Source: Catenuloplanes indicus (lineage in GTDB: Bacteria; Actinomycetota; Actinomycetes; Mycobacteriales; Micromonosporaceae). Taken from it: DNA of 64,000 nucleotides. Shown here piece after piece: positions 2,715 through 17,835 of the stretch. The stretch is from positions 4,092,001 to 4,156,000 of the forward strand of contig NZ_JAUSUZ010000001.1 of the NCBI RefSeq assembly GCF_030813715.1, written 5' to 3'. The notes under the pieces were generated by a model, which ran no database searches, was not told where the DNA came from, and saw only the letters and a list, made by a program, of their open reading frames with translations. Positions within the stretch are counted from its first letter, which is position 1, and each line of letters begins with the position of its first letter. The position numbers and the translations under genes are program-made.

Positions 2715-3434
2715 ATGCTGTTCAACCCGACCATCGCCTGGATGACCGCGCGCGGGCTGTTCGGCCGCCGCCGGTTCCTGCTGCTGTTCCCGCTGCCGCT
2801 GCTGCTGGTCGCGCTGGCCGTCTTCGCCCGCGTCACCGGCATCAACAACGGCGACTGGGGACCGCTGGTGATCAACGGCCTGGGCATCGCGGTGCTGCTG
2901 CCGGTGACCGCGCTCATCGTCGGCACCGGCGTGCTCGGCTCCGAGATCGACGACGGAACGATCGTGCACATCCTCACCAAGCCGCTGTCCCGCGCGGAGA
3001 TCGTCTGGGCGAAGTTCCTGGTCGCGTCCGGCGTCACCGCGCTCACCGCCGCGATCCCGCTCTACGTGGCCGGCGTGCTGGTCCAGGACTTCCGGTTCGG
3101 CCTCGCGCTGGCCGGTGCGGTCGCGATCGGCGCGGTCATCTATTCCGCCGTGTTCGTGCTGCTCAGCCTGCTCAGCCGGCGCCCGGTCCTGGTCGGCCTG
3201 CTCTACGTGCTGATCTGGGAGGGCCTGCTGGGCAACCTGGTGAGCGGCACCCGGGTGCTGTCCATCGGCCAGTACACGGTGACCTACGCGGACCGCTTCC
3301 TCCCGACCGAGTATCTGACCGGGAACGTCTCGCTGCCCGTCACCATCGTGATGAGCGTGATCGTCACGGCGCTCTGCCTTGCGTACGCGGTGTTCCGTCT
3401 CCGCTCCTTCACGGCCAGCTCCGAGACCAGCTGA
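2715..3434 (+). CDS. ABC-2 type exporter permease (second of two)
   Basis: Membrane permease of 239 aa with about six transmembrane segments. It has the ABC-2 loop motif SEIDDGTIVHILTKPLSR near residues 76-93, matching the corresponding loop of the first permease. It starts two bases after the stop of the second ATPase and is the last gene of the operon. It is shorter than the first permease and lacks the longer N-terminal region of that protein. Substrate unknown. The GC-rich sequence after its stop (about 3437-3466, repeated GGCGGGGCCGC) can fold and probably ends both this operon and the converging gene 3470-4654. Confidence 0.88.
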   Translation: MLFNPTIAWMTARGLFGRRRFLLLFPLPLLLVALAVFARVTGINNGDWGPLVINGLGIAVLLPVTALIVGTGVLGSEIDDGTIVHILTKPLSRAEIVWAKFLVASGVTALTAAIPLYVAGVLVQDFRFGLALAGAVAIGAVIYSAVFVLLSLLSRRPVLVGLLYVLIWEGLLGNLVSGTRVLSIGQYTVTYADRFLPTEYLTGNVSLPVTIVMSVIVTALCLAYAVFRLRSFTASSETS

Positions 3435-3469
3435 CCTGGCGCGGCCCCGCCGTCCCCGGCGGGGCCGCC

Positions 3470-4654
3470 TCAGCGGACGTCGACCTGGAAGATGGGGAGG
3501 CGGCCGAGGTCTCGGTAGGCGGCCAGGCCGTCCGACGTGCGTTCCGGGCGGGAGTCGCGGCCGCGCTGGTCGTGGGGCGTGTCGAAGTGCAGCAACGCCT
3601 TGATCCGCGGGAAGTCCCCGATCTGCCGCCCCACGCTGCGGTAGAACTCCGCCTGGTGGCCCGGGTTGGCATGGCTGGCCCAGACGCCCCACTCCGCGAC
3701 CATCAGCGGTTTCGACGGGTGCCGGGCCACCGCCCAGTTGTAGAAGCCCGGCCAGTCCGGTTCCTCGCCGGAGACCCGGTTCATCAGCTCCGCGAAGTCG
3801 CCGTGGCCGTACTCGCCGCGCTCGCTGTAGGCGTAGGTGTCCCAGGCCACCCAGTCGACCACGTCGTCGCCCGGGTACAGGCCGGCGAACCACGGTGCCG
3901 CGGTGTACGGCACGTAGGCCATGTGGACCATGACGGTGACCAGGTTGTCCACGCCGCGGGCCCGCAGCCGCTGAACCACGTGCCGGAACATGTCCCGGTA
4001 GTCGTGCTCGGTGTACTCCGACCCGCGGCGCGGCCGCACCTCCTCCTCCGGTTCGTGGTGGACGGTGAAGAAGAACGGCTGGGTGTACGTGTCCCGGATG
4101 TGGGCGGCCAGCCGGTCCAGGTACTCGTCGGCGGCACCGTCCGCGATCTCCGCCCAGCTGGCGTCCCACGGCTTCCAGTTCAGGAACAGGATCCGCGGCC
4201 GGGCCGGGTCACCGGCGATGGCCAGCTCCTCCGCTGTCGGAAAGAGACCGTTCATCCCCCGGTGGTACGCGTGGTAGACCGCCTGCGTGCGCCCGGTCTT
4301 CTCCTCGTACTCGGCCAGCGCCCGCGCACCGCGCGCGGCGGTGAACGCGCCGGGTGCCGCTCCCCAGAGGACGTTGCAGGTCGGCACCAGCTTCGGCCCG
4401 ACCCGGCAGCCGGCCGGGCCCGGCGCGGACGTGACCGGTGCCGGGCCGAGACCGGTCGACGCGGAGGGCGGCGGCGGCTCGTCCGGTACCGGCCGCGTCG
4501 GGCGGCCCGGCTCCGCGCGTGGCGGTGGCGTGCTGCCCGGCGCGGACGGTGGCGCGTCGTTGTCCTCGCGCAGGCCGGACCAGAGCAGACCGGCGCCGGC
4601 CACCAGCAACACGACCGCCGCCAGGGCCAGTAACAGGTGTATCCGGCGGCGCAT
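3470..4654 (-). CDS. membrane-anchored GH26-like glycoside hydrolase
   Basis: Secreted or membrane-anchored glycoside hydrolase of 394 aa, resembling beta-mannanase family GH26. The ATG at 4654 has GGGAGG eight bases upstream; a longer in-frame start at 4696 lacks this. Residues 1-25 form a signal anchor (MRRR then hydrophobic), followed by a Pro/Ser/Ala-rich linker to about residue 75. The catalytic region has HHEPEEE (probable acid/base E201) and MVAEWGVWA (probable nucleophile E321), plus YPGDDVVDW, which also occurs in the lipoprotein 14089-15099. The two are clearly related and flank a polysaccharide locus, so this enzyme may trim or release the polymer. The GH26 assignment is by motif memory; family and substrate need a profile search. 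Confidence 0.78.
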   Translation of the reverse strand: MRRRIHLLLALAAVVLLVAGAGLLWSGLREDNDAPPSAPGSTPPPRAEPGRPTRPVPDEPPPPSASTGLGPAPVTSAPGPAGCRVGPKLVPTCNVLWGAAPGAFTAARGARALAEYEEKTGRTQAVYHAYHRGMNGLFPTAEELAIAGDPARPRILFLNWKPWDASWAEIADGAADEYLDRLAAHIRDTYTQPFFFTVHHEPEEEVRPRRGSEYTEHDYRDMFRHVVQRLRARGVDNLVTVMVHMAYVPYTAAPWFAGLYPGDDVVDWVAWDTYAYSERGEYGHGDFAELMNRVSGEEPDWPGFYNWAVARHPSKPLMVAEWGVWASHANPGHQAEFYRSVGRQIGDFPRIKALLHFDTPHDQRGRDSRPERTSDGLAAYRDLGRLPIFQVDVR

Positions 4655-4794
4655 GCGCTGGCGACCTCCCCTGCGGTGACGACCTCCTCCGCACAACGAG
4701 CCGGGGTACTGATTTGTCGCTCGGCCCCCCTCCGACTTTCACGATCGGGCGTTCTGCTGAGAGACTGTCTGCCTTACTTGGTCTTGGGGGTGGG

Positions 4795-6318
4795 ATGAAC
4801 AGCGGTGGGTGGTTGCTGCCCGAGGACGTGCTGCGGGACGCGCCGGCTTATACGCCCCGGGCGTATGAGCTCGCCGACCTGGAGCTGCTGCTCTCCGGCG
4901 CCTATGCCCCGCTGACCGGCTTCCTCGGCCGCGCGGATCTGAGCAGCCTGCAGCGCCGGGGCCGGCTCGCGGACGACCGGTCCTGGCCGGCGCCGGTGAC
5001 GCTGGAGGTGCCGGCCTCGATCGCGGAGGGCCTGGACCTGACGAACCCGGTCGGGCGCGCGATCGTGCTGACCGACCCGGAGGGTGCGCCGGTCGCGGCG
5101 ATGGAGGTCGCGGACGCGTGGCCGACCAAGAACGGCATGTACGGCGTCGGCGGCGACGTGCGGCGGCTCGGCGACGGTACGCACGGCCCGTTCCAGCGCC
5201 TGCGCCGGACGCCGGAGGAGATCAAGGCGCTGCTGCCCCCGGGCCGGGTGCTCGGCGTGATCGCGGACAAGCCGCTGCACCGCCCGCAGCTCGCCCAGAT
5301 CGCGCACGCGGCGAAGCAGCTCAGCGCACACCTGCTGGTGCTCATCCCGATCGCCGAGGCCAGCCCGGACGGCATGCCGCCGGAGGCGCTGGTCCGCGCG
5401 ATCTTCGCGGCGCGCGACCGCATGCCCCCGGCGACGCTGGTCGCGGTGTCGCTGACCCGGCGCGGCCAGGAGATCGCGGACGCGCTGCTGCGGGCACGGG
5501 TGGCCGCGGCGTACGGCGTGACCCACCTGCTCTCCACCGGGGAGTCACTCTCCGGTGGTGGTCCGCGCGTGCTGGTGCCGCGCGAGCTGGCCTACGACAA
5601 CCGGGACGGTCAGTGGCGCTGGCGGGAGGAGATCCCGCCGCGCAACCGCAAGCTGGCGCTGTCCCAACTGGAGATCAACGATCTCCTTGACCGGGGCTTC
5701 CCGCTGCCCGAGTGGCACACGCCGCCGGCCGTGGCCAAGGAGCTGGTCCGGGCACGCCCGCCGCGCCGGCACCGGGGCCTGGTGGTGTTCCTGACCGGGC
5801 TGTCCGGTTCGGGCAAGTCCACCGTGGCCCGGCACGTGGCGGACACCGTACGCGAGTCCGGCGAGCGGTCGGTCACGCTGCTGGACGGCGACGTGGTGCG
5901 CCGTGAGTTGTCCGCCGGCCTGACGTTCAGCAAGGCGGACCGGGACCGCAACGTGCGCCGGATCGGCTGGGTCGCGGCCGAGGTGGCCCGGCACCGCGGG
6001 CTGGCGATCTGCTGTCCGATCGCGCCGTACGCGGACGCCCGCGCCGAGGCCCGGAAGATGGCGACCCAGGCTGGTGCCGGTTTCGTGCTGGTGCACGTGT
6101 CGACGCCGCTGGAGGTCTGCGAGCAGCGCGACCGCAAGGGCCTCTACGCGAAGGCGCGGGCCGGCGAGCTGACCGGGATGACCGGCATCGACGATCCGTA
6201 CGAGACGCCGACGGACGCGGAACTGACCATCGACACCAGCGAGCTGTCGCTGGCCGACTCGGTCAAGCTGGTGATGGACCACCTGACCGAGCACGGCTGG
6301 TTCGAGCCGCACCGCTGA
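4795..6318 (+). CDS. cysC: APS kinase with N-terminal ATP-sulfurylase-like domain
   Basis: Makes PAPS, the sulfate donor for sulfotransferases, by phosphorylating adenylylsulfate; 507 aa, cytoplasmic. The ATG at 4795 follows a GGGGGTGGG ribosome-binding site. The C-terminal APS kinase domain is complete: P-loop GLSGSGKST at 335-343, LLDGDVVRRELS, and KGLYAKARAG followed by GIDDPYE. The N-terminal 320 residues look like ATP sulfurylase (PUA-like start with LLSGAYAPLTGFLG), but I do not find the family's QxRNPxH or GRDHAG motifs: the corresponding stretches read IADKPLH and LLSTGES. The first domain may therefore be inactive or regulatory, with APS coming from CysDN elsewhere. It lies directly before the polysaccharide genes, which include two sulfotransferases. 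Confidence 0.85.
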   Translation: MNSGGWLLPEDVLRDAPAYTPRAYELADLELLLSGAYAPLTGFLGRADLSSLQRRGRLADDRSWPAPVTLEVPASIAEGLDLTNPVGRAIVLTDPEGAPVAAMEVADAWPTKNGMYGVGGDVRRLGDGTHGPFQRLRRTPEEIKALLPPGRVLGVIADKPLHRPQLAQIAHAAKQLSAHLLVLIPIAEASPDGMPPEALVRAIFAARDRMPPATLVAVSLTRRGQEIADALLRARVAAAYGVTHLLSTGESLSGGGPRVLVPRELAYDNRDGQWRWREEIPPRNRKLALSQLEINDLLDRGFPLPEWHTPPAVAKELVRARPPRRHRGLVVFLTGLSGSGKSTVARHVADTVRESGERSVTLLDGDVVRRELSAGLTFSKADRDRNVRRIGWVAAEVARHRGLAICCPIAPYADARAEARKMATQAGAGFVLVHVSTPLEVCEQRDRKGLYAKARAGELTGMTGIDDPYETPTDAELTIDTSELSLADSVKLVMDHLTEHGWFEPHR

Positions 6319-6330
6319 CCGGCGCACCTG

Positions 6331-6371
6331 TGATCGAGGCGTCCGCCGCGTCCTGGCGGGCGCCTCGATCA
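6331..6371 (+). terminator. hairpin terminator after the APS kinase gene
   Basis: Inverted repeat with outer arms TGATCGAGGCG (6331-6341) and CGCCTCGATCA (6361-6371) and an inner CCGCC/GGCGG pairing, starting 12 bases after the stop of the APS kinase. There is no clear T-run, as is common for actinobacterial terminators. It separates the APS kinase transcript from the Wzz-like gene. Confidence 0.7.
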
Positions 6372-6533
6372 TGTCTCGATCGGGTCGGTGCGCGGCCGAT
6401 AGTTACGTAGCCGAGAGACGGGCGTTGAACCCCGGGGGGCGATTCGCCGCTCTCGGCCGCTTCATGGTGATTTTCCCGGCGGCCCCGCCTTCGACCGTAC
6501 GGTCGGCACCCCGTGGAAAGGGCCGCCACACCC

Positions 6534-8279
6534 ATGGACGCGTCTCCTCCGCCGTCCCACGACATGTCCCACTATTTCGGGATACTACGGCGGCACTGGT
6601 GGGTACTGGCGGGCCTGGCGCTGCTCGGGCTCGGCATCGCGGCCGGCGTGACCGCGCGAATGCCGAAGACCTACGAATCCGCGACCAGCGTGCTGGTCAC
6701 CCCGGCCGGTCAGGACACCAACGTCTCCGGCGGCCGGACCAAGGGTGAGGTCAACCTCGACACCGAGGCGCAGCTGGTGCGCTCCACCGCGGTCGCGGCC
6801 GGTGCGGCCGAGCTGCTGCGCAGCCCGCTGGCGCCGGACGAGCTGGCGAAGAGCCTCCGGGTGGAGGTGCCCGCGAACACGTCCGTGCTGGTCATCACGT
6901 ACGCCGCGACCGAGCCCGCGGCCGCGCAGGCCGGGTCGCACGCGTTCGCCGAGGCGTACCTGCGCAACCGGGAGCGGACCGCCACCGCCAGCACCGAGGC
7001 CGCGATCAAGGCGCTCTCCGACAAGACCAAGCAGCTCAGTGCCACGCTCACCGAGGTCAACAACCAGCTGGCCCGGGTGGACCGGGAGAGCCCGCAGCGG
7101 CCCAACCTGGAGAGTCAGCGGCAGACCACGCAGAACCAGCTGAACTCGCTGAACGGCAAGCTGAACGAGCTGACCACGACCACGGTCAGCGTCGGCTCGA
7201 TCATCAGCGAGGCGCGGCTGCCGTCCATGCCGAGCAGCCCGAACACCATGCTGAACCTGGCCACCGGCGGCATGATCGGGCTGCTGCTCGGCCTGCTGGC
7301 CGCCACGCTGTGGGAGCGCCTGGACCGCCGGGTGCGGTCCGCGGCCGACGTCTCCGGCGCCGGGGTGCCGGTGCTGGCCACGCTCAACGGCCGCAGCGCG
7401 CCCCGGTTCGACGACGTGCTCCAGCCGTACGGCCCGGGCGGCCGCACGTTCAACCGGCTGCGCAACGAGGTGCTGGCCAGCCTCGGCCGGGACGACCAGG
7501 TCGTGGTGGTCACCGGCGCCAGCCGCGGGTCGGCCACCACGCTGGTCGCCGCGAACCTGGCCACCGCGCTGGCCCGGACCGGCAGCGAGGTGGTGCTGAT
7601 CGGCGCGCACCTGCCGGAGAGCATGGTGGAGATCGCGCCGATCGCCCGGATCTTCGGCATCGCGGCCAAGCCCGGACTGTCCGAGGTGCTGGCCGGGCGC
7701 GCGCCGCTGGCCGACGCGGTCCAGCAGGCGCCGCGGGTGCCGTCGCTGCGCGTGGTCACCACCGGGGGCACCGCGGCCGCGGGCGGGCTGATGCAATCGC
7801 AGGCGCTCTCCGACATGCTGAGCACGCTGCGCCGGCAGGCCGCGTACGTGGTGATCGAGGCGCCGTCCACGTCCAGCAGCGCGGACGCGCAGAGCCTGGC
7901 CAGTCTCGCGGACGCGGCGATCCTCTCGGTGGAGACGCGGCGGGCCCGGCGGCCGGAGGTGGCGGACGCGGCCGAACAGCTGCGCCGGGTCGGTACGCCG
8001 CTGCTCGGCGCCGTGGTGTTGCCACGCATCGAGCCGAAGGCGGCCGAGGAGCTGCCACCGCCGCGGCCGACGCTCGCGCCACCGCAGCCGAAGAAGCCCA
8101 CCAGCCGCACGTACGGGTCGGAGGCCGCGAAGAAGCCGAGTCCGTCGAAGGCCGCCGAGCCGAAGATGCCGGGCTGGCTGGGCGAGTCCGACGCGGAGAC
8201 CCGGGTGATCGACATCTCCGCCGTGGCCGCCGCGACCCGGGACGACAAGCGCCCGGACCCCGACGGACCGGCGAGGTGA
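6534..8279 (+). CDS. Wzz-like chain-length protein with degenerate BY-kinase domain
   Basis: Polysaccharide co-polymerase, 581 aa. One transmembrane helix lies near residues 18-38 and a second near 240-262, with an extracytoplasmic region between them containing a coiled coil (KALSDKTKQLSATLTEVNNQ region). The cytoplasmic C-terminal part has the fold pattern of bacterial tyrosine kinases (VVVVTGASRGSATTLVAANLA), but the Walker A lysine is missing: the usual GEGKSTT position reads GSATTLV. The Walker A' VLIDAD reads VLIGAH, and the tail has no tyrosine cluster. It is therefore probably a pseudokinase that still controls chain length or export. ATG 6534 is preferred, with GGAAAGG 11 bases upstream; GTG 6513 is an alternative. 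Its stop overlaps the next GTG. Confidence 0.82.
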   Translation: MDASPPPSHDMSHYFGILRRHWWVLAGLALLGLGIAAGVTARMPKTYESATSVLVTPAGQDTNVSGGRTKGEVNLDTEAQLVRSTAVAAGAAELLRSPLAPDELAKSLRVEVPANTSVLVITYAATEPAAAQAGSHAFAEAYLRNRERTATASTEAAIKALSDKTKQLSATLTEVNNQLARVDRESPQRPNLESQRQTTQNQLNSLNGKLNELTTTTVSVGSIISEARLPSMPSSPNTMLNLATGGMIGLLLGLLAATLWERLDRRVRSAADVSGAGVPVLATLNGRSAPRFDDVLQPYGPGGRTFNRLRNEVLASLGRDDQVVVVTGASRGSATTLVAANLATALARTGSEVVLIGAHLPESMVEIAPIARIFGIAAKPGLSEVLAGRAPLADAVQQAPRVPSLRVVTTGGTAAAGGLMQSQALSDMLSTLRRQAAYVVIEAPSTSSSADAQSLASLADAAILSVETRRARRPEVADAAEQLRRVGTPLLGAVVLPRIEPKAAEELPPPRPTLAPPQPKKPTSRTYGSEAAKKPSPSKAAEPKMPGWLGESDAETRVIDISAVAAATRDDKRPDPDGPAR

Positions 8280-9616
8280 CGTCCGCGCACCTCGCGGAGC
8301 GGGCCTCCCCCTCGTACCCCCGCGAAGGTTTTGATCTTCCGGCTTGGCCGGTCGCGGGTCTGTTGCTGCTCTATCCGCTGTGGTGGGCGCTCGGACTGGG
8401 CGTGCTGATCTTCCCGATCCTGGCCGTGCCGATGGCGGTACTGCTGATCCGCGGTGCCGCGCGCGGCCGCCCGGTCCGGATGCCGCCCGGTTTCGCCTGG
8501 TGGCTGCTGTTCCTCGCGGTCGTGGTGGTCAGCATCGGCGCGCTCGGCGCGGACCCGGCCGGCACGGTGCCGGAGCGGGCGAGCGCGCGGATCGTCGGCG
8601 TCGCGTTCCGGCTCGCGCAGTACGCGTCGCTGACCGTGCTGCTCGTCTACGCGGGGAATCTCACCGAGCGCGAACTCCCTCGCCGCCGGATCGCCGGGCT
8701 GCTCGGCTGGCTGTTCGTGGTGACCGTGGCCGGTGGGCTGCTGGGCGTGTTCGCCGGGCACTTCGCGTTCACGTCGCCGGTGGAGATGGCACTGCCGGCC
8801 GGCATCCGCAACAAGGGCTTCGTGCAGTCGATGGTGCACCCGTACGCCGCGCAGATCATGGACGTGGTCGGCGAGACCCGTCCGCGCCCGGCCGCGCCGT
8901 GGGGCTACACGAACACCTGGGGCAACAATTTCTGCCTCTTAGTAGGATTTTTCATTGTTTCCAGTAGCAAACACCGACTGCTCGCCACGCTCTGCTTACT
9001 CGTCGCGCTGGTGCCGGTGGTGGAGTCGCTCAACCGGGGACTGTGGATCGGGCTCGGCGTCTCCGCGCTCTACGTGGCGCTGCGGTCCGGCCGGATCACG
9101 CTGCTGCTCGGCGTGCTCGCCGCGAGCGCGCTGCTGGTGCTGGTCGTGCTGGTCAGCCCGCTCGGGAGCACGGTCACCGCGCGGCTGGACAACGGCAAGT
9201 CGGACGGCGTCCGCTCGTTCCTGGTCGGCCGCGCACTGGACGGCGTGGTGCACTCACCGGTGATCGGCTACGGCTCCACCCGCACCACGATCGGCGGCCG
9301 TAACTCGATCGCGGTCGGCGAGAGCGCCGCGTGCGAGCGGTGCGGCAACTTCACGGTCGGCGGCAACGGCCAGCTCTGGCAGCTGCTCTACGCGCACGGC
9401 CTGACCGGGACGATCGCCTATTTCGGTTTCTTCGCACACGGGCTGTGGCGGTTCCGGCGCGACCGCAGTCCCACCGGCCTCGCCGCGAGCTGCGCGATCG
9501 TCGCGTCGTTCGTCGCCACGCTCTGGTACAACGCGCTGGTCACCCCTCTGGCGTTCCTGTTCCTCGCCTACGCGCTGCTGTGGCGGAACCAATCATCCGA
9601 GGGAGACCCCACGTGA
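8276..9616 (+). CDS. O-antigen ligase/polymerase-like membrane protein
   Basis: Polytopic membrane protein of 446 aa with about ten to twelve transmembrane segments and one long extracytoplasmic loop (about residues 300-375), the layout of Wzy/WaaL (Wzy_C) proteins. The conserved NRGLWIG stretch before the late membrane helices also fits that family. It starts at GTG 8276, overlapping the Wzz-like stop by four bases, and ends with a four-base overlap with the next gene. It probably polymerises or ligates lipid-linked repeat units outside the membrane. Around 8925-8985 the base composition drops sharply (TTAGTAGGATTTTTCATTG) without breaking the frame. Confidence 0.78.
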   Translation: MTSAHLAERASPSYPREGFDLPAWPVAGLLLLYPLWWALGLGVLIFPILAVPMAVLLIRGAARGRPVRMPPGFAWWLLFLAVVVVSIGALGADPAGTVPERASARIVGVAFRLAQYASLTVLLVYAGNLTERELPRRRIAGLLGWLFVVTVAGGLLGVFAGHFAFTSPVEMALPAGIRNKGFVQSMVHPYAAQIMDVVGETRPRPAAPWGYTNTWGNNFCLLVGFFIVSSSKHRLLATLCLLVALVPVVESLNRGLWIGLGVSALYVALRSGRITLLLGVLAASALLVLVVLVSPLGSTVTARLDNGKSDGVRSFLVGRALDGVVHSPVIGYGSTRTTIGGRNSIAVGESAACERCGNFTVGGNGQLWQLLYAHGLTGTIAYFGFFAHGLWRFRRDRSPTGLAASCAIVASFVATLWYNALVTPLAFLFLAYALLWRNQSSEGDPT

Positions 9617-10839
9617 CGGTAAAGACCGCGCCGGTACGCCTGACGGCGAACGACGCCGCGCTGCGGGCGCAGTACCTGGACGAGGTGCTGACCGTGCTCT
9701 ACCCGCCGCCGATGTTCACCACGGACGGGCCCGGCGCGATCGAGTTCGTGGTGGTGCCGGACCGCGCCCGTGCCCGCCTGCTGGTCCCGGCCAGCCCGCG
9801 CCGGATCGCCGCCGCCGCGGTCCGCCGCTACGCCGAGCCGCAGTCCCGCGGCGCGAAGCTCAAGCGCGAGGCCGTGGTGGCGGCGCTGCAGACCGGCGCG
9901 TCCGGCCTGCTGTTGCGCGACCGGATCCGGATCGACGGCCCGCGGGACGCCTCGATCGACGCGTACCTGGAGCGCGCGCTCGGCCGCCGCACCGCGCTCA
10001 GCATCCACATCGGACCGGCGCGGGCCAACCGCAAGCCGGTGCTCCAGCTGCTCGACGACGCGGGCAGCACCTGCGGTTTCGTCAAGCTCGGCACCGGGCC
10101 GCTGACCCGGGAGCTGGTCGAGGCGGAGACGGCCGCGCTGCGCACGCTGGACGGCGTGCCGCTGCCGCACCTGACCGTGCCACAGGTGCTGCACGCCGGG
10201 CGGTGGGGCGCGCACCAGGTGCTGGTCCAGTCCGCGCTGCCGGTATGGCGGCCGCGCGCGTCGCTGTCGCCGCGCCGGCTCGCCGCCGCGATGCGCGACG
10301 TGGCCGGCTGCCTCGGCTACACGTACGGGCCGCTCACCGCGAGCCCGTACTGGAAGAGCCTGACCGACCGGCTGGCCGAGGTGGCGGACCGGGAGGAGGG
10401 CGCGCAGCTCGGCCGCGCGGCCCGGCTGCTGGCGGACCGGGCCGGGCAGATCAGCCTGCGGTACGGCGCCTGGCACGGCGACTGGGCACCGTGGAACATG
10501 GCCGCGCTGGACGACACGGTGCTGCTCTGGGACTGGGAGCGGTTCACGCCCGGCGTACCGGCCGGGTTCGACGCGATCCACCACGAGCTGCAACGCCGCG
10601 TGCAGTTCGACCCGGACGCGACCGGTGCGCTGGAGGCCACCATGCAGCGCGCCGGTGAGCTGCTGCACCCGTTCGAGGTGGCGCCCGGCGCGCGCGAGCT
10701 GACCGCGCTGCTCTACCTGGTCGACCTGGCCGTCCGCTACCTGATCGACCGGCAGGCCGAGGCCGGTGCGCGGCTCGGCGTCCTGGGCAGCTGGCTGCTG
10801 CCGGTTCTCATCCGTCGTGTGGAGGGCAATCGGAAATGA
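9613..10839 (+). CDS. APH-like phosphotransferase of unknown substrate
   Basis: 408 aa protein of the aminoglycoside phosphotransferase/choline kinase superfamily. The catalytic loop WHGDWAPWN gives H288, D290 and N295, and WDWERF supplies the metal-binding D307. The first 140 residues do not resemble the kinase N-lobe and are of unknown function; the N-lobe starts near residue 135 (KPVLQLLDD, GFVKLGTG). GTG 9613 overlaps the previous stop and has GGGAG upstream. Because it sits between an O-antigen-ligase-like gene and a sulfotransferase, it may phosphorylate a sugar or a lipid-linked intermediate, but this is inferred from context only. Confidence 0.72.
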   Translation: MTVKTAPVRLTANDAALRAQYLDEVLTVLYPPPMFTTDGPGAIEFVVVPDRARARLLVPASPRRIAAAAVRRYAEPQSRGAKLKREAVVAALQTGASGLLLRDRIRIDGPRDASIDAYLERALGRRTALSIHIGPARANRKPVLQLLDDAGSTCGFVKLGTGPLTRELVEAETAALRTLDGVPLPHLTVPQVLHAGRWGAHQVLVQSALPVWRPRASLSPRRLAAAMRDVAGCLGYTYGPLTASPYWKSLTDRLAEVADREEGAQLGRAARLLADRAGQISLRYGAWHGDWAPWNMAALDDTVLLWDWERFTPGVPAGFDAIHHELQRRVQFDPDATGALEATMQRAGELLHPFEVAPGARELTALLYLVDLAVRYLIDRQAEAGARLGVLGSWLLPVLIRRVEGNRK

Positions 10840-11711
10840 TCACTTCGTCGCGGGTGCCGGGTGCGGTCAAGCACATCGTGCATCTCGGGTCCCGGTCGTA
10901 CGGGCGGCTGACCGCGGGCTCGCGCATGCTGCCGTCGTTCCTGATCGCGGGCGGGCAGCGCTGCGGGACCACGTCGCTCTACCGTGCGCTGGCCGCACAT
11001 CCCGTGGTGCTCAAGGCGGTGCTGCACAAGGGCGTGCACTACTTCGACACGTCGTACGGCCGGGGCATCAACTGGTACCGCGGGCACTTCCCCCGGCAGA
11101 GCACCGGGCACCGGGTCGGCGAGCGGCACGGCGCACCGGCGCAGACGTTCGAGTCCAGCCCGTACTACCTCTACCACCCGCAGGCCGCGGCCCGGATCGC
11201 CCGGGACCTGCCGGACGTACGGCTGATCGCGCTGGTCCGGGACCCGGTCGAGCGCGCGTACTCGCAGCACGCGCACGAGGTGGCCCGCGGGTTCGAGAAG
11301 GAGCCGTCGTTCGCGCGGGCGCTGGCGCTGGAGCCGGCCCGGCTGCACCGGCAGGAGGAGAAGCTGGCCGCGGACCCGGACTACTACTCGTTCTCGCACC
11401 AGCACCACGCCTACCGCGCGCGCGGCGAATACGCCCGCTACCTGGACGCGGTCGCGGAGCACATCCCGCGCGAGCGGATCCTGGTGGTGGAGAGCGAGCG
11501 GTTCTTCGCCGAGCCGGAGTCGGTCTACGACCGGGTGCTCAACTTCCTGGACCTGCCGCACCTCGCGCTGCCGGCCTTCGAGAAGCACAACGCGCGCCCG
11601 CGCGGCACCGCGATGGACGACGCCGTGCGCGCGGACCTGACCGCGCACTTCGCGCCGCATGACCGTGCGCTGACCGCCTGGCTCGGGCACACCCCGGTCT
11701 GGCGAGCCTGA
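10836..11711 (+). CDS. PAPS-dependent sulfotransferase (first)
   Basis: Transfers sulfate from PAPS to an acceptor, probably a sugar hydroxyl of the polymer made by this locus; 291 aa, soluble. The 5'-phosphosulfate-binding loop is GGQRCGTTSLYR at residues 39-50, and the 3'-phosphate-binding motif is RDPVERAYS at 135-143. Both fit the Sulfotransfer_1/heparan sulfotransferase-like group. HKGVHYF near 64-70 also fits that group. It starts four bases before the end of the kinase-like gene and its stop overlaps the flippase ATG, so it belongs to the same transcript. The APS kinase at 4795 would supply its donor. Confidence 0.88.
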   Translation: MITSSRVPGAVKHIVHLGSRSYGRLTAGSRMLPSFLIAGGQRCGTTSLYRALAAHPVVLKAVLHKGVHYFDTSYGRGINWYRGHFPRQSTGHRVGERHGAPAQTFESSPYYLYHPQAAARIARDLPDVRLIALVRDPVERAYSQHAHEVARGFEKEPSFARALALEPARLHRQEEKLAADPDYYSFSHQHHAYRARGEYARYLDAVAEHIPRERILVVESERFFAEPESVYDRVLNFLDLPHLALPAFEKHNARPRGTAMDDAVRADLTAHFAPHDRALTAWLGHTPVWRA

Positions 11712-13339
11712 TGGGGGCGCCCACGCGCGCCCTGCCCCGCACCGTCGACCACTCCATCTGCGGCAGCGTGCCGGGCATGCTGTGCGCGCACGCGTCACCG
11801 CGGCCGGCCGCCGCGGAGAAGAGCGTCGGCGGCGCCGCCCGCGGCGGGCTGGCGAGCCTGATCGGCGTCGGCTTCACCGGGCTCACCGGCCTGGCCGTGA
11901 CCTGGCTGGTCGCGCGCGGGCTGGGCACCGATCACGCGGGCGCGTTCTTCGCCGCGACCGCGCTGTTCGCGCTGGCCACCGGGCTGGCCCGGCTCGGCAC
12001 GCAGACGTCGCTGGTCTACTGGCCGGCCCGGCTGCGCGCCCGGGGCAACGCGAACCTGCTCGGCGAGTGCCTGCGCACCGGGCTGACGCCGGTCGGCGCG
12101 GTCGCGCTGGTGATGGCCGTGCTGCTCTGGACGTTCGCGCCCGCGCTGGCCGGGCTGACCGCGCCGGACGCCGCGCCGGCCGTGGTTGCGGACCACGCCG
12201 GTCAGCTGCGCATGCTCGCGGTGTTCCTGCCGCTGGCCGCGATCGCGGACGCGGTGCTCACCGCGACCCGCGGCTACCGCATGCTCCGGCCGACGATCAT
12301 GCTGGAGCGGATCGTCCGGCCCGGCCTGCAACTGGCCGGCATCGGCGGGCTGGCGCTGGCCGCGGCCTGGGTCGTGCTGCCGCCGCACTGGTACGCGCTG
12401 GCCTGGGCCGGCCCGTACCTGCCGGTGGCACTGCTCGGCGGGTACGCGCTGCGCCGCGTCTACCTGTCCGGCCCGGCACCGGCCGAGGCGCCCACCTCGC
12501 GCGCCCGCCGGCTGCTGCGCCGGCGCTTCTGGCGGTTCACCGGCCCGCGCGCGGTCGCCAGCGTCGCGCAGCTGGCGTTGCAGCGCCTGGACGTGCTGCT
12601 GGTCGCCGCGTTCGGCGGACTGGCCGCGGCCGCGCTCTACGCGGTGGCCGGGCGCTTCGTGGTGCTCGGCCAGTTCGCCAACCAGGGCATCGGCCAGGCG
12701 GTGCAGCCCCGGCTGGCCGAGGCCCTGGCCACCGGCGACCGGGACCGGGCGAACGCGCTCTACCAGGCCGCGACCGGCTGGCTGGTGCTGGCGGCCTGGC
12801 CGCTCTACCTGCTGGTGATCACGTTCGCGCCGGTCTACCTGGGCGCGTTCGGCGCGGACTACCGCGGCGGCGGCACGATCGTGGTGGTGCTGGGCAGCGC
12901 GATGCTCTTCTCCACCGGCTGCGGAATGGTCGACTCGGTGCTGACCATGGCCGGGCGCACCACCTGGAACCTGTGGAACGTGCTGCTCGCGCTGGTCGTG
13001 ACGATCTCGCTGAACCTGCTGCTGATCCCGTCGATGGGCGCGCTGGGCGCGGCGATCGGGCTCGCGGTGGCCGTGCTGATCAACAACCTGGTGCCGTTGT
13101 TGCAGGTCGGGTTGGTGCTCGGGCTGCACCCGTTCGGCCGGGGCACGATGGCGGCGGGTGCGCTCGCGCTCGCGTGTTTCGGCGGCGTGGGCGCGCTCGC
13201 CGTGCGCGCGCTCGGCCCGACCGTGCCGGGCCTGCTGGCCGCGCTGGCCGGTGGCGGCGCGTTCTACGCGCTCGGCATCCTGCGGCTGCGGACCCTGCTC
13301 GCCCTCGACGACTTCGCGCGCCTGCGCCGTACCAATTAG
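11711..13339 (+). CDS. Wzx-like polysaccharide flippase (MOP superfamily)
   Basis: Membrane protein of 542 aa with about 12-14 hydrophobic segments, the layout of MATE/Wzx-type flippases of the MOP exporter superfamily. An unusual 40-residue soluble N-terminus precedes the first helix (GGLASLIGVGFTGL). Membrane helices 7 onwards begin with the RAVASVAQLALQRLDVLLVA segment, which matches the second half repeat of MOP proteins. The ATG overlaps the stop of the sulfotransferase gene. A later start (about 11780) would remove the long N-terminus and cannot be excluded. It probably moves lipid-linked repeat units across the membrane. Confidence 0.82.
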   Translation: MGAPTRALPRTVDHSICGSVPGMLCAHASPRPAAAEKSVGGAARGGLASLIGVGFTGLTGLAVTWLVARGLGTDHAGAFFAATALFALATGLARLGTQTSLVYWPARLRARGNANLLGECLRTGLTPVGAVALVMAVLLWTFAPALAGLTAPDAAPAVVADHAGQLRMLAVFLPLAAIADAVLTATRGYRMLRPTIMLERIVRPGLQLAGIGGLALAAAWVVLPPHWYALAWAGPYLPVALLGGYALRRVYLSGPAPAEAPTSRARRLLRRRFWRFTGPRAVASVAQLALQRLDVLLVAAFGGLAAAALYAVAGRFVVLGQFANQGIGQAVQPRLAEALATGDRDRANALYQAATGWLVLAAWPLYLLVITFAPVYLGAFGADYRGGGTIVVVLGSAMLFSTGCGMVDSVLTMAGRTTWNLWNVLLALVVTISLNLLLIPSMGALGAAIGLAVAVLINNLVPLLQVGLVLGLHPFGRGTMAAGALALACFGGVGALAVRALGPTVPGLLAALAGGGAFYALGILRLRTLLALDDFARLRRTN

Positions 13340-13351
13340 AAAGGATTTTTC

Positions 13352-14092
13352 GTGACAAATTATGCTTCGGTGTTTCAGAACGCGGATGCGGTCGAGAAGT
13401 ACGAGACCGTCACGTACGCGCCGGACAGCTACGGCTCCGCGATCAACGAGCGGCAGCGCGCGTACCTCCGGCATCTGATCAAGCGGTCGTTCCCGGTGCG
13501 GCGCCCGGTGCAGCACGACTTCGCCTGCGGCACCGGCCGGGCGATCCGGCTGCTGCACGGCGCGGTGCGCGGCGCGCACGGCTACGACACGTCCGCGGAG
13601 ATGCTGGCGAAGGCGGCCGAGGTGGGCACGGCCGCGCGCCTGCACCGGATCGCGGAGGACGGCCCGGTCCCGGCGCCCGCGCACGAGGAGGGTCCGGCGC
13701 TGGTCACGTCGTTCCGGCTGCTGCTCAACGTGGACGAGTCGGTTCGGCACCGGCTGATCGGCTTCGCCGCGCAGGCGCTGCCGGACCGGGACGCCGGCCT
13801 GCTGGTGGTGGAGAACCACGGCAACCGGCACTCGCTGCGGCACCTGGCCGCCCGCCGTCGCTCCGGCAGGCGGTGGTTCGCGGAGTTGTCGCACGCCGAG
13901 GTGAGCGCGCTGCTCGCACAGCACGACTTCGAGATCGTGGAGCGACGCGGGTTCAGCATGTTCCCGCAGTCGGCCTACGCACGGCGCTGGGCCCGGCCGG
14001 TCGCGCGGCTGGTGGACCGGATCGCCGCACGCGTCCCGCTGCTGTCCGCGGTGGCGGTGAACGTGCTCTACGTGGCCCGGCGGCACACGTGA
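13352..14092 (+). CDS. class I SAM-dependent methyltransferase
   Basis: 246 aa. Motif I reads DFACGTGRAIRLL near residues 57-69 and is followed by the acidic motif II GYDTSAEMLAKA, typical of class I methyltransferases. The GTG at 13352 follows AGAAAGGA, a good ribosome-binding site, 12 bases after the flippase stop. The first codons are AT-rich compared with the rest of the locus (ACAAATTATGCTTCGGTG). It probably O-methylates a sugar of the polymer or a precursor; the substrate cannot be read from the sequence. The stop overlaps the GTG of the next gene. Confidence 0.82.
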   Translation: MTNYASVFQNADAVEKYETVTYAPDSYGSAINERQRAYLRHLIKRSFPVRRPVQHDFACGTGRAIRLLHGAVRGAHGYDTSAEMLAKAAEVGTAARLHRIAEDGPVPAPAHEEGPALVTSFRLLLNVDESVRHRLIGFAAQALPDRDAGLLVVENHGNRHSLRHLAARRRSGRRWFAELSHAEVSALLAQHDFEIVERRGFSMFPQSAYARRWARPVARLVDRIAARVPLLSAVAVNVLYVARRHT

Positions 14093-15099
14093 CCCGCCGC
14101 TGGCTCCTGGCGCTGGTGACGTCGCTGGCCGTGGCCGGGTGCACCGGCGGCGATCCGTCGCCCGCGCCCGTCCCGTCGCCGGACCTGGACGGGCCGCCAC
14201 CGGCGATCGCGGTGAACCCGGGGCCGTTCGACGCCGGGCCGATCGCGCTGCCCGCGCGCGGCGCCTACCTGGGCGCGTGGGTGAAGCCGGCGGTGATCAG
14301 CCAGCCCGGCCGGCTGGAGGCGACCCGCGGGCTGGAGGAGCGCCTCGGGCGCGACCTGGACATCGTGCACACGTACCGGAAGTGGGACGAGAAGTTCGGC
14401 ACCGCGTCGGACCGGGAGTACCTGGACGCCGGCGCAACGCTGCTGTTCAGCTGGGCCTCCGGCGACACCCGGTCGATCACGTCCGGCGAGCACGACGAGC
14501 TGATCCGGGCACAGGCCAGGCGCGTCGCCAAGGACGGGCGGCCGGTGCTGATGCGGTTCCGGTGGGAGATGGACCGGCCCAACCTGCGCCCCTCGATGTG
14601 GTCCGGCGACGACTACGTGGCCGCCTGGCGGCACGTGCGGCGGATCTTCGACGCGGAACGCGCCCGCAACGCGTCCTGGGTGTGGTGCCCGACCGCGGAG
14701 GGCTTCGAGAACGGCGAGGCGCCCGCGTTCTATCCCGGCGACGACGTGGTCGACTGGACCTGCGTCGACGTCTACGCGGGCGAGGACTTCCGCTCGCTCG
14801 GTGATCTGCTCACGCCGTTCCTGCGCTGGGCCGCCGAGCGGCCGAAACCCATCCTGATCGGCGAGTACGGCGTGGCCGCGGCCTGGGGCTCGGAGCGCCG
14901 GGCCGCCTGGCTGCGCGACGCGACCCGCCTGTTCAAGGCGAATCCGCAGATCAAGGGTGTCTGCTACTTCGACTCCAACCCGGACGGGAACCCGCCCGCC
15001 AAACAGTTCCAGATCTCCGGGGATGCACCGGCGTTCGCCGCGTTCACCGAGCTGACCCGCGACCCCTGGTTCAACCCGGAAGTGCAGCCGGAGCCGTAG
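14089..15099 (+). CDS. GH26-like glycoside hydrolase lipoprotein
   Basis: Exported lipoprotein, 336 aa. A short signal peptide (RRWLLALVTSLAVAGC) ends in a lipobox with Cys at about residue 17, so the enzyme is lipid-anchored on the outer face of the membrane. The catalytic pattern is like GH26: RFRWEMDRPN gives the probable acid/base E160 and LIGEYGVAA the probable nucleophile E259. It shares YPGDDVVDW with the gene at 3470-4654. Starting at GTG 14089, it overlaps the methyltransferase stop. Its TAG stop (15097-15099) is the first three bases of an inverted repeat that also supplies the stop of the converging glycosyltransferase. Likely role: trimming or chain-length control of the exported polymer. 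Confidence 0.8.
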   Translation: MTRRWLLALVTSLAVAGCTGGDPSPAPVPSPDLDGPPPAIAVNPGPFDAGPIALPARGAYLGAWVKPAVISQPGRLEATRGLEERLGRDLDIVHTYRKWDEKFGTASDREYLDAGATLLFSWASGDTRSITSGEHDELIRAQARRVAKDGRPVLMRFRWEMDRPNLRPSMWSGDDYVAAWRHVRRIFDAERARNASWVWCPTAEGFENGEAPAFYPGDDVVDWTCVDVYAGEDFRSLGDLLTPFLRWAAERPKPILIGEYGVAAAWGSERRAAWLRDATRLFKANPQIKGVCYFDSNPDGNPPAKQFQISGDAPAFAAFTELTRDPWFNPEVQPEP

Positions 15100-15153
15100 G
15101 GCATGTCCGGCGGATCCCGACGGCCTGCGGCGAGATCCACCGAACGCGCCCTA
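15097..15153. repeat. imperfect inverted repeat supplying both convergent stop codons
   Basis: Arms of 22 bases begin TAGGGCATGTCCGG on the plus strand (15097-15118) and TAGGGCGCGTTCGG on the minus strand (15153-15132). There are five differences, one of them compensated by a G-T pair. The first three bases of each arm are the stop codon of the gene reading into it: the GH26-like lipoprotein (plus) and the WecG-like glycosyltransferase (minus). It probably acts as a two-way terminator and looks like a small inserted repeat. Confidence 0.65.
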
Positions 15154-15915
15154 GCGCACCCGGCCGACCATGGCGCCGAGCAGCAGGCGCATCGCGTACG
15201 GGGCGTCGTGGCCGAGGTAGCGGCGGGCCATCCGGCGTGGCTCGCCGGCCAGCCGGTGCACCCACTCCAGGCCGGACCGCTGCATCCAGGCCGGGGCGCG
15301 GCGCGCGTCACCGGCCACGAAGTTGATCGCGGCGCCGCAGCCGAGGAACCAGGTGAACGGCAGGTACTCGGCGAGCGCGGAGATCACCCACTCCTGCTTC
15401 GGGAAGCCGAGGCCGACGTAGACCAGGTCCGGCTTGGCCTCGACCACCTCGCGGCAGACCGCCTCCAGCTCCTTCGGGCGGCGCTCGAAGCCGTACGCCG
15501 GGCTCAGGCAGCCGGCGATGCGCAGGCCCGGGCAGGCCACCGCGAGCCTGGACGCGGCGCGCTCGGCACCGTTCGCGCCCTCGTCCGGTTCGCCGCCGAT
15601 CAGGAACACGGACCGGCCGTCATCCGCGACGCCGGAGGAGAGCGACCAGATCAGGCTGGACCCGGCGACCCGTTCCGGCACCGGCGTGCGGGCCAGCCGG
15701 CTGGCCCACACCAGCGGCATGCCGTCGGCCACCACCAGGTCGGCGCCGCAGAGCAGGTCGCGTACGGCCGCGGAGTCGCGGGCCTGGCGCAGGATGTCGA
15801 CGTTCGGGGTGACGATCCGGCCGCCCTCGCCGCGTTCGAGCGCGCGCCGGACGTGCCCGACCACCTGCGACTCCGTCACCGGGTCGAACCCTGTCCCGTC
15901 AAGGACGACGCGCAC
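15151..15915 (-). CDS. WecG/TagA/CpsF family glycosyltransferase
   Basis: Transfers a sugar, in known members an N-acetylmannosamine-type residue, to a lipid-linked intermediate on the cytoplasmic face; about 254 aa, the usual family length. Family motifs are TPNVDILRQA, VVADGMPLVWASRL, and VYVGLGFPKQEW near the C-terminal half. GTG 15915 has GGGGGAG about nine bases upstream; an earlier GTG at 15942 is possible. It is the only gene of the polysaccharide block on the minus strand and is transcribed away from the second sulfotransferase, with 55 bases between the two starts that must hold both promoters. Confidence 0.88.
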   Translation of the reverse strand: MRVVLDGTGFDPVTESQVVGHVRRALERGEGGRIVTPNVDILRQARDSAAVRDLLCGADLVVADGMPLVWASRLARTPVPERVAGSSLIWSLSSGVADDGRSVFLIGGEPDEGANGAERAASRLAVACPGLRIAGCLSPAYGFERRPKELEAVCREVVEAKPDLVYVGLGFPKQEWVISALAEYLPFTWFLGCGAAINFVAGDARRAPAWMQRSGLEWVHRLAGEPRRMARRYLGHDAPYAMRLLLGAMVGRVR

Positions 15916-15970
15916 CGCAAGCACTCCCCCACGCTCGATCACTCGTTACTTAACGAAACGACCGAAAGTG

Positions 15971-16918
15971 GTGAAAGTGGCACGGGTACTCTTTCTCGGT
16001 GGTTTGGGGCGAAGTGGGACAACCCTCGTAGAGCGCCTGCTCGGTGAGCTGCCGGGGGTCTGCGCGCTCGGCGAGGTGGTGCACCTCTGGCAGCGCGACG
16101 TGCGCGACGACGAGCGCTGTGGCTGCGGCGCCCGCTTCTCCGAGTGCGCGTTCTGGCGCGCGATCGGCGAGGCCGCGTTCAACGGTTGGCAGAACGTCGA
16201 CGTGGACCGGATCATCGCGCTGCGCGCCACGGTGGAACGCACCCGGTTCATCCCGCGCCTGGCCGCCCGGACGCTGCCGCGCGCGCTGCACGACGCCGTG
16301 CTCGAGTACGCCGCGTTCTACACCTCGGTCTACGAGGCGGCCGCGCTGACCGCGGGCGCCGAGGTGGTCGTCGACTCGTCCAAGCACAGCGCGCTCGCGC
16401 ACTGCCTGCGCTGGTCTCCCGCGCTGGACCTGCGCGTGGTGCACGTGGTCCGGGACCCGCGCGGCGTCGCGTACTCCTGGACGAAGTCGGTGGCCCGGCC
16501 GGAAACCGACGGCACCGAGGAGATGACCCGTTACTCGGCCGGGCGCTCGGCGCTGCTGTGGACCGGGCACAACGCGGCGTTCGGGCTGCTCGCCCGCCGC
16601 GGCGTGCCCACGATCCGGCTCCGGTACGAGCAGCTGCTCGCCGACCCGCGCGGCGAGCTGGCCCGGATCGCCGCGCACGCGGGCCTGCCGCTGCGCGCAA
16701 ACGACCTGGCGTTCGTCGACCGCAGCGCCGCCGAGCTGCGCACCGGCCACAGCGCCGCCGGGAACCCGATGCGCTTCACCACCGGCCGGGTGGAGCTGCG
16801 CCGGGACGACGCCTGGCGCGACGCGCTCCCACCCCGGCAGCGTGCCCTGGTCGGCGCGGTCTGCGCCCCGATGCTGCACGCCTACGGCTACGCAACCCCG
16901 CAGAAGGAGATCTCGTGA
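15971..16918 (+). CDS. PAPS-dependent sulfotransferase (second)
   Basis: 315 aa sulfotransferase, distinct from the one at 10836. The 5'-phosphosulfate-binding loop GLGRSGTTLVERL is at residues 11-23, and the 3'-phosphate-binding motif VVRDPRGVAYSW begins at about R161. The region HLWQRDVRDDERCGCGARFSEC contains three cysteines, as often seen in actinobacterial members. Several GTG codons (15968, 15971, 15977) could start it and no strong ribosome-binding site decides. It heads a two-gene unit with the GT2 glycosyltransferase (four-base overlap). A second enzyme suggests sulfation at two positions or on two residues. Confidence 0.87.
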   Translation: MKVARVLFLGGLGRSGTTLVERLLGELPGVCALGEVVHLWQRDVRDDERCGCGARFSECAFWRAIGEAAFNGWQNVDVDRIIALRATVERTRFIPRLAARTLPRALHDAVLEYAAFYTSVYEAAALTAGAEVVVDSSKHSALAHCLRWSPALDLRVVHVVRDPRGVAYSWTKSVARPETDGTEEMTRYSAGRSALLWTGHNAAFGLLARRGVPTIRLRYEQLLADPRGELARIAAHAGLPLRANDLAFVDRSAAELRTGHSAAGNPMRFTTGRVELRRDDAWRDALPPRQRALVGAVCAPMLHAYGYATPQKEIS

Positions 16919-17835
16919 CCAGCTGGCCCACGGTCGGCGTGGTGATCCCGACCCGCAGTCGCCCCGAGCTGGTGCGCAAGGCCGTCGACTCGGTCCGCGC
17001 CCAGGACTACCCCGGCAAGATCCGGATCATCGTGGTGTTCGACGGCACCGAGCCGGACTTCTCGCTGGCCGCGCCGGGCGGCCCGCCGGTGCTGATGCTG
17101 GCGAACTGGCGTACCCCCGGGCTGGCCGGCACCCGCAACACCGGCATCACCGCGCTGGACACCGAGCTGGTCGCGTTCCTGGACGACGACGACCAGTGGC
17201 TGCCGGCGAAGCTGCGCAAGCAGGTCGCGGCGCTGCTGACCGAGCCGCAGGCGGAGTTCGTCACGTGCGGCATGCAGGTGGAGTTCGACGGCCGGCGCAA
17301 CGCGCGGCTGGCCGGGCGCGACCGGGTGACCGTGCAGGAGCTGGCCCGGTCCCGGATGGCGATGCTGCACTCGTCGAGCTTCCTGATCCGGCGCGAGGCG
17401 CTGATCGGCAAGCACGGCTTCGGCCTGGTCGCCGAGGACGCGCCGGGCAGCCAGAACGAGGACTGGGACCTGCTGCTGCGCGCGGCCCGCCGGTCGCCGA
17501 TCGTGCACGTGGACGAGCCGCTGGTCCAGGTGCTGTGGGGGCGCAGCTCGCACTACGCCTACGAGTACGGCACGAAGATCTCGTCGTTGCGGTGGATGAT
17601 GGCCCGGCACCCGGAGATCGCCGGATGCGCGCCCGGCGCGGCCCGCGTCTATGGTCAGCTAGCTTGCTGGTCCGCCGCGACCGGCAACCGGCCGGACGCG
17701 TGGCGCTGGACGAAGGAGGCGGTCCGGGCGAACTGGCGCGAACCGCGCGCCGCGATCGCGCTGGCCGCGATGACCGGCGCGGTCAAGGTGGAGAACGTGC
17801 TGGCCACGCTGCACCGGCACGGCAGGGGTATTTAA
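16915..17835 (+). CDS. family 2 glycosyltransferase
   Basis: Inverting GT-A glycosyltransferase of 306 aa, probably cytoplasmic. The N-terminal nucleotide-sugar-binding stretch is VGVVIPTRSRPELVRKAVDS, followed by the pattern GLAGTRNTGI and the metal-binding FLDDDDQW (DXD). The acceptor-side part has EDWDLLLRAARR, with the ED that is conserved in GT2 enzymes. The start is GTG 16915 with AAGGAGA upstream, overlapping the sulfotransferase stop by four bases. Sugar specificity is not readable. It is the last gene of the polysaccharide block; after it the galactose genes begin. Confidence 0.9.
   Translation: MTSWPTVGVVIPTRSRPELVRKAVDSVRAQDYPGKIRIIVVFDGTEPDFSLAAPGGPPVLMLANWRTPGLAGTRNTGITALDTELVAFLDDDDQWLPAKLRKQVAALLTEPQAEFVTCGMQVEFDGRRNARLAGRDRVTVQELARSRMAMLHSSSFLIRREALIGKHGFGLVAEDAPGSQNEDWDLLLRAARRSPIVHVDEPLVQVLWGRSSHYAYEYGTKISSLRWMMARHPEIAGCAPGAARVYGQLACWSAATGNRPDAWRWTKEAVRANWREPRAAIALAAMTGAVKVENVLATLHRHGRGI

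Follow-up and report, generated by a model that had tools for sequence, protein, structure and literature searches.

The window analysed here, a 64,000-nucleotide stretch of the 9.25 Mb genome of the spore-forming soil actinobacterium Catenuloplanes indicus, carries a locus that is very probably (about 0.82) the Catenuloplanes orthologue of the wps-1 pathway of Actinoplanes missouriensis, building and exporting a sulfated polysaccharide with a dedicated supply of 3'-phosphoadenosine 5'-phosphosulfate (PAPS). The core claim has been in print since June 2026 (PMC13390465); our analysis adds the logic of the supply, a candidate priming enzyme and a phylum-wide pairing of a kinase with a sulfotransferase. 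The published reports are each represented here by part of their text, and what we say of them is limited to that part. The gene content and order of the locus, its wide conservation, its single adenosine 5'-phosphosulfate (APS) kinase and the states of the motifs were observed directly in this analysis. Gene order was taken from a listing of open reading frames and a codon-usage gene call, and families were assigned with Pfam and NCBIfam. The features of the window are as follows.

3470-4654, minus strand: GH26a, a GH26-like glycoside hydrolase with an N-terminal hydrophobic stretch (PF02156, E 1.6e-5, over cut-off).
4795-6318, plus strand: two-domain APS kinase, counterpart of AMIS_7390 (PF14306, PF01747 and PF01583, E 6e-56).
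6564-8279, plus strand: Wzz-type chain-length protein, counterpart of WpsK (PF02706, E 1.3e-8; TIGR01005 and TIGR01007 below cut-off).
8363-9616, plus strand: Wzy-like polymerase of the O-antigen-ligase family, counterpart of WpsJ (PF04932, E 5e-5, below cut-off; conserved position).
9613-10839, plus strand: APH-like kinase of 408 residues, counterpart of WpsI (weak PF01636; HGDxxPxN and DWE motifs intact).
10836-11711, plus strand: sulfotransferase 1 (ST1), of the heparan-sulfate 3-O-/N-sulfotransferase type, counterpart of WpsH (PF00685, E 2e-12; PDB 6xkg).
11711-13339, plus strand: Wzx-type flippase, counterpart of WpsG (PF01554 over cut-off, PF01943 just under).
13352-14092, plus strand, start at 13352 or 13370: methyltransferase dependent on S-adenosylmethionine, counterpart of WpsF (PF13649 and PF13489 below cut-off).
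14089-15099, plus strand: GH26b, a GH26-like lipoprotein hydrolase, counterpart of WpsE (PF02156, E 2e-4, over cut-off; lipobox VAGC by eye).
15151-15879, minus strand: WecG/TagA/CpsF (GT26) glycosyltransferase, counterpart of WpsC (PF03808, E 6e-53).
15971-16918, plus strand: sulfotransferase 2 (ST2), counterpart of WpsB (PF13469, E 2e-17).
16915-17835, plus strand: GT2 glycosyltransferase, counterpart of WpsA (PF00535, E 3e-18).
19931-21741, plus strand: flanking deoR-type regulator and galT.

Flippase, polymerase, co-polymerase and glycosyltransferases lie together in this set, as in a Wzx/Wzy-dependent pathway, with the Pfam match of Wzy below its cut-off. All the genes named in an earlier sequence-only reading of the stretch were recovered at their places by Pfam and NCBIfam. 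Its two sulfotransferase reading frames have real stops and plausible starts, both products score over the Pfam cut-off and contain the 5'- and 3'-loop PAPS motifs it had described, and the overlaps it reported between stops and starts are real (Wzy/kinase, kinase/ST1, ST1/Wzx, methyltransferase/GH26b and ST2/GT2). Some details needed correction. The APS kinase is present, as a fusion of a PUA/ATP-sulfurylase-like N-terminus with the kinase. Both GH26 genes exist, GH26a lying outside the interval that had been assigned to the locus, on the minus strand and divergent from the APS kinase gene. Both glycosyltransferases are present as well, the WecG/TagA/CpsF enzyme being encoded on the minus strand. 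The gene at 9613-10839, to which that reading had given no name, encodes the APH-like kinase.

The wps-1 cluster and the gene AMIS_7390 of Actinoplanes missouriensis were described by Tezuka and Ohnishi (Applied and Environmental Microbiology, June 2026; PMC13390465). The cluster encodes a GT2 enzyme (wpsA), a sulfotransferase (wpsB), a WecG-family protein (wpsC), a DUF4262 protein (wpsD), a GH26 protein (wpsE), a methyltransferase (wpsF), Wzx (wpsG), a heparan-sulfate-type sulfotransferase (wpsH), a kinase-like protein (wpsI), Wzy (wpsJ) and Wzz (wpsK), and is followed by AMIS_7390, of the sulfate adenylyltransferase/APS kinase family (PMC13390465). The window shares eleven functions with it, in the same order and beside the sulfate adenylyltransferase/APS kinase gene. 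It differs in its host genus, Catenuloplanes instead of Actinoplanes, in a GH42 gene between the set and deoR, and in missing wpsD, the one dispensable gene of wps-1 (PMC13390465). The locus of another genome (G142) carries the full set plus a DUF4262 gene at the wpsD place, with protein identities to the window of 58-78%.

All wps-1 genes except wpsD, together with AMIS_7390, matter for normal sporangium formation (PMC13390465). Strains lacking wpsA, C, F, G, H, I, J, K or AMIS_7390 released only 10^2-10^6 spores, compared with 10^8 for the wild type; ΔwpsE caused a slight loss of spore release and ΔwpsD behaved like the wild type. The deletions distorted the sporangia, severely in ΔwpsH and ΔAMIS_7390 and with a common squashed phenotype in ΔwpsJ and ΔwpsK, and the mutants had no macroscopic growth difference (PMC13390465). 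The authors predict a sulfated polysaccharide, with verification awaited; they found the ΔAMIS_7390 phenotype unexpected and linked it to amino-acid synthesis (PMC13390465). These genetics and the sequence together support a sulfated, methylated and exported polysaccharide, as the sequence-only reading had proposed. Its remark that no well-studied example was known from this group is outdated at the genetic level, the role tested in wps-1 being in the sporangium and not in a capsule (PMC13390465).

The set is widely conserved, and the idea that the locus is unique to this strain was rejected. We defined eight core genes (Wzz, Wzy, kinase, ST1, Wzx, WecG, ST2 and GT2) and counted matches in loci at E<=1e-10, with no reciprocal test. 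In 80 named loci, which were found via WpsI itself, all eight were matched in 68, so chance can be excluded; whether the genes stay together in relatives had been set beforehand as a test of the earlier proposal, and they do. The remaining 12 comprise eight stretches shorter than 21 kb and four full-length ones (L101, L109, L122 and L163). The APS kinase is present in the sequenced stretch of 61 of the 68 complete loci, and four of the seven without it are from Glycomyces. GH26a was matched in 65 of the 68, an upper bound given that the two GH26 genes can cross-match. The methyltransferase was matched in 64; its lack of a match in the other four limits the claim of methylation. For a separate count, 20 loci of relatives were hand-picked, not drawn at random, from the listed APS kinase matches. 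Ten have the eight core genes in the same order, two of these lacking the methyltransferase and one GH26b; of the other ten, eight have no WpsI match at E<=1e-40 and two (G100 and G088) have one about 17 kb away. Wzy identity across the loci compared is 51-96%. Among 300 Micromonosporaceae genomes, a WpsI-type kinase homologue occurs in 205. Of the 48 genomes in which the listed matches give a place for both genes, 47 have it at a distance of 4.4-17.1 kb from the APS kinase, and in the 48th the two are on different contigs. Carriers of the set include Catenuloplanes, Asanoa and Catellatospora, which to our knowledge form no classical sporangia, so the role of the locus may be wider than the sporangium matrix.

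The fused APS kinase of the window is the only PF01583 match in its own genome. Eight of nine other genomes also have exactly one, and the ninth (G037) has one strong match plus two at about 22 bits, near the cut-off of 21.1. The best PDB match of the fusion is 3cr8 (E 2e-93), which we take to be the two-domain APS kinase of Thiobacillus denitrificans. Its ATP-sulfurylase half reads VIADKPLHRPQL where the active enzyme 1i2d has FQTRNPMHRAH. The motif QTRNPxHRxH is altered in all 117 aligned copies (96 distinct sequences, the same genome being included more than once), most of which read AD[RK]PLHRPQL. By its sequence this half looks inactive, and an intact bifunctional ATP sulfurylase was rejected on the loss of the motif. 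CysDN is encoded elsewhere in the genome, with CysQ upstream. A CysH with the pattern CC...CxxC, the signature of APS reductases, was found in the same genome and in eight of the nine others; in the ninth (G111) CysH is in two pieces without the pattern. A sole APS kinase, the lost motif, separate CysDN and a CysH of the APS-reductase type together suggest that PAPS is not needed for cysteine synthesis and that the APS kinase feeds sulfotransferases instead. Such a supply would explain why the ΔAMIS_7390 phenotype is severe and wps-1-like. Eight Sulfotransfer_3 matches occur in the genome, the window accounting for two, and the PAPS supply is therefore shared. G034, a genome in which the other genes of the set are missing, has kept a single ST1 homologue immediately after the APS kinase (L048:4931-5779).

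The two sulfotransferases carry different PAPS loops, GGQRCGTTS and RDPVERAYS in ST1 and GLGRSGTTL and RDPRGVAYS in ST2, and these motifs are kept in aligned orthologues and in distant homologues. The best PDB matches of ST1 are heparan-sulfate enzymes, the 3-O-sulfotransferase 6xkg (E 3.6e-19) and the N-sulfotransferase 1nst (E 1e-9), and by homology and PAPS motifs it belongs with the heparan-sulfate type. In the alignment its PAPS loop has Arg at the position of a Lys in the heparan-sulfate enzyme. The catalytic base of 3-O-sulfotransferases is a Glu before the HxFFD stretch. It was not found in ST1, and all 12 aligned relatives have Gly at this position; in 13 distant ST1 matches it is Gly in nine, Glu in three and Thr in one. 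Without this Glu, neither the chemistry nor the site of sulfation can be read from the motif, and on present alignments ST1 is homologous to, but not classed as, a 3-O-sulfotransferase. A single-sequence search at E<=0.01 found no PDB relative of ST2, which has a weak NoeE match (E 4e-4) far below the cut-off.

Several points weigh against a sulfated product made at a dedicated PAPS supply. The role described in print concerns sporangia, and Catenuloplanes is not known to form these in the usual manner. PAPS is also a substrate of some Fe-S CysH enzymes. ST1 reads KGVHYFD where 3-O-sulfotransferases have AEPHFFD, with Gly for the Glu. By profile, the best matches of ST2 in the PDB are weak, and none is a glycan enzyme: they are a chain annotated as polyketide synthase (E 9e-5) and aryl sulfotransferases. 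In the literature searched we found no measurement of sulfate in a product made by the locus. In A. missouriensis, deletion of wpsB cost about tenfold in spore release and left sporangia normal-looking by scanning electron microscopy, AMIS_7390 was not activated together with wps-1 on day 3, and deletion of the whole cluster was not complemented (PMC13390465).

Other explanations were weighed. The sulfotransferases could act on a lipid-linked oligosaccharide, a glycolipid or another small molecule and not on a long polymer. The weak Wzy match below the PF04932 cut-off would fit such a product, as would the short unit implied by the few transferases encoded and the small-molecule enzymes among the best matches of ST2. 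Moreover, some Wzy-family proteins act as ligases. However, Wzz and Wzy are each matched in 80 of 82 loci and Wzx in 79, the best structural relatives of ST1 work on heparan sulfate, and ΔwpsJ and ΔwpsK share the squashed-sporangium phenotype (PMC13390465). We consider a small-molecule substrate improbable. The APS kinase could also serve cysteine synthesis, a role implied in the discussion section of PMC13390465, its position beside the set being incidental. The fused enzyme is matched in 299 of the 300 Micromonosporaceae genomes, some of them without the set, and the other sulfotransferases among the eight matches in this genome would need PAPS too. This explanation sits poorly with CysH of the APS-reductase type in nine of the ten genomes checked and with separate cysDN. 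It also sits poorly with the ΔAMIS_7390 mutant, which had no macroscopic growth difference and a sporangium phenotype as severe as that of ΔwpsH (PMC13390465), and there is little chance that it is correct. Least likely of all, the polysaccharide would be made unsulfated by sulfotransferase-fold proteins that have lost or changed their activity, a reading that can draw on the Gly for Glu and Arg for Lys of ST1 and that is opposed by the kept PAPS-loop motifs, by Arg in the PAPS loop of active tyrosyl-protein sulfotransferases and by the effect of deleting AMIS_7390. Sulfation of a small natural product by a surrounding biosynthetic cluster was also considered and rejected, as the scanned window proteins include no family of nonribosomal peptide synthetases or polyketide synthases; the other genes between 1 and 26 kb were judged by eye.

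A Wzx/Wzy-dependent pathway calls for an initiating sugar transferase, which was found neither in the set of the window nor in wps-1 as described in the available text (PMC13390465). In that main text the term 'initial glycosyltransferase' occurs once, about Shigella, and the words PAPS, Micromonosporaceae and Catenuloplanes are absent. The genome of the window encodes five Bac_transf proteins. One of them, of 572 residues (L216:6618-8336, approximately 5606617-5608335 of the chromosome), lies between pth and cysQ-cysD-cysN. A transferase at this place was found in eight of eight genomes with the set, split over two frames in G111, and in neither of two genomes without it, where 120-130 bases separate pth from cysQ, measured between their aligned ends. 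The ten genomes are those searched for CysH and are not independent, the genus of the window occurring three times and the genus taken as Actinoplanes twice. The association is suggestive, not proof, that the Bac_transf protein beside cysQDN is the first enzyme of the pathway. A link of a priming transferase to PAPS genes does not appear in the parts of two capsule-cluster reports covered here (PMC11641403; PMC11766843).

For the APH-like kinase, a PF01636 match at E<=1 was obtained in eight of 11 family members (best 8e-5), and a profile search at E<=5 found no PDB relative. HGDWAPWN and DWE are invariant in the aligned family, and since HGDxxPxN and DWE are also kept in 12 of 12 distant homologues, the 408-residue protein is probably an active kinase. 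Homologues at E<=1e-30 occur in 11 of 396 genomes drawn from the phylum, the genome of the window included. We read 11 distant loci with their flanks, namely the second locus of the same genome, nine regions from eight genomes and L171, leaving out G575 and G312. An ST1 homologue lies directly beside the kinase in ten of them; in the eleventh, L208, there is none within 19.9 kb. Nine of the ten paired loci encode, as a minimum, Wzx and Wzy as well as a relative of GT2 or ST2, with the gene order shuffled, and L171, which is ended by a contig end, has the kinase and three ST1 only. Identities over all matched genes are 26-53%. The three ST1 homologues of L171, from a metagenome-assembled actinomycete, are consecutive and follow the WpsI-like kinase (L171:11558-14315).

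The second locus of the genome (L199; G000:C1:8620500-8640400) has Wzz, Wzy, Wzx, ST1, kinase and GT2. It also encodes proteins resembling Alg14 and GT28 and a Bac_transf sugar transferase of its own, and looks like a second sulfated-polymer locus. A broader reading joins these observations, and we put it forward tentatively, at somewhat short of even odds. Actinomycetota would possess an old, scattered machinery for sulfated polysaccharides whose hallmark is WpsI beside WpsH in Wzx/Wzy loci. Micromonosporaceae would have wired it to sulfate activation twice, through the APS kinase, sole in this genome, that adjoins the assembly genes and through the priming transferase inside pth-cysQ-cysD-cysN. 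This genome would hold two such loci, and the glycan sulfated by WpsH may be the substrate that WpsI phosphorylates.

The substrates, the order of the steps and the sulfate on the polymer are what we infer in the following scheme. CysDN would make APS, which the two-domain APS kinase would convert to PAPS for sulfotransfer and not for cysteine. The sugar transferase encoded beside cysQDN would prime the lipid carrier, and the GT26 and GT2 enzymes would complete a short repeat unit of about three sugars. WpsH and WpsB would sulfate this unit, and the methyltransferase and the APH-like kinase would modify it. Wzx would flip the unit, and Wzy and Wzz would polymerise it. The GH26 enzymes could then trim the polymer outside the cell, while CysQ would remove 3'-phosphoadenosine 5'-phosphate.

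Around the set, ABC transporter genes lie upstream (by eye) and GH42, the DeoR regulator and galT downstream. In six of the 20 hand-picked loci (L048, L049, L055, L056, L057 and L061), the set is missing between the APS kinase and the deoR and galT genes that come after it, and no more than two other genes intervene. The Wzz protein (6564-8279) has a C-terminal tyrosine-autokinase-like domain whose Walker-A stretch (GASRGSATT), by eye, looks degenerate, departing from what we take to be the canonical form. In a genome of the same genus (G084), a gap of about 3.7 kb in which no gene was called separates the WecG-type gene from GH26b (L043, approximately 2858-6523).

Two reports name cyanobacteria as the sole bacterial source of sulfated polysaccharides (PMC8205485; PMC13390465), although examples from marine Gram-negative bacteria have been published (PMC11641403; PMC11766843). 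Given the conservation found here, the chemistry of such polymers can be put to the test in a large group of actinobacteria from soil. Our analysis also offers PAPS supply as a reading of the ΔAMIS_7390 phenotype and names a candidate for the missing first enzyme of the pathway.

Among known systems, the synechan (xss) locus of Synechocystis PCC 6803 resembles the window in combining a pathway of Wzx, Wzy and polysaccharide co-polymerase with two sulfotransferases of distinct subfamilies (PMC8205485). There, loss of xssA abolishes bloom and polymer and loss of xssE does not, and the polymer is stained by Alcian blue at pH 0.5. Unlike the window, xss is plasmid-borne and has eight glycosyltransferases and its own regulators XssS/R/Q; in the part of the report covered, the term glycoside hydrolase is absent and the only kinase named is a sensor (PMC8205485). 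Vibrio sp. KMM 8419 and Cobetia marina KMM 1449 make sulfated capsular polysaccharides outside the cyanobacteria, as we propose here, and their capsule clusters contain cysNDC (in Cobetia also cysQ) with sulfotransferases, much as the APS kinase adjoins wps (PMC11641403; PMC11766843). They differ in being Gram-negative marine hosts with ABC-type export (Kps) in the parts covered, complete PAPS genes in the cluster and determined structures (PMC11641403; PMC11766843). An ATP-sulfurylase-like domain fused to APS kinase, as in the window, is also found in 3cr8 and in the enzyme of Entamoeba histolytica, where its role is called unclear (PMC13213808). In the alignment, the actinobacterial half differs by an altered motif of its own, which reads AD[RK]PLHRPQL in the majority of copies.

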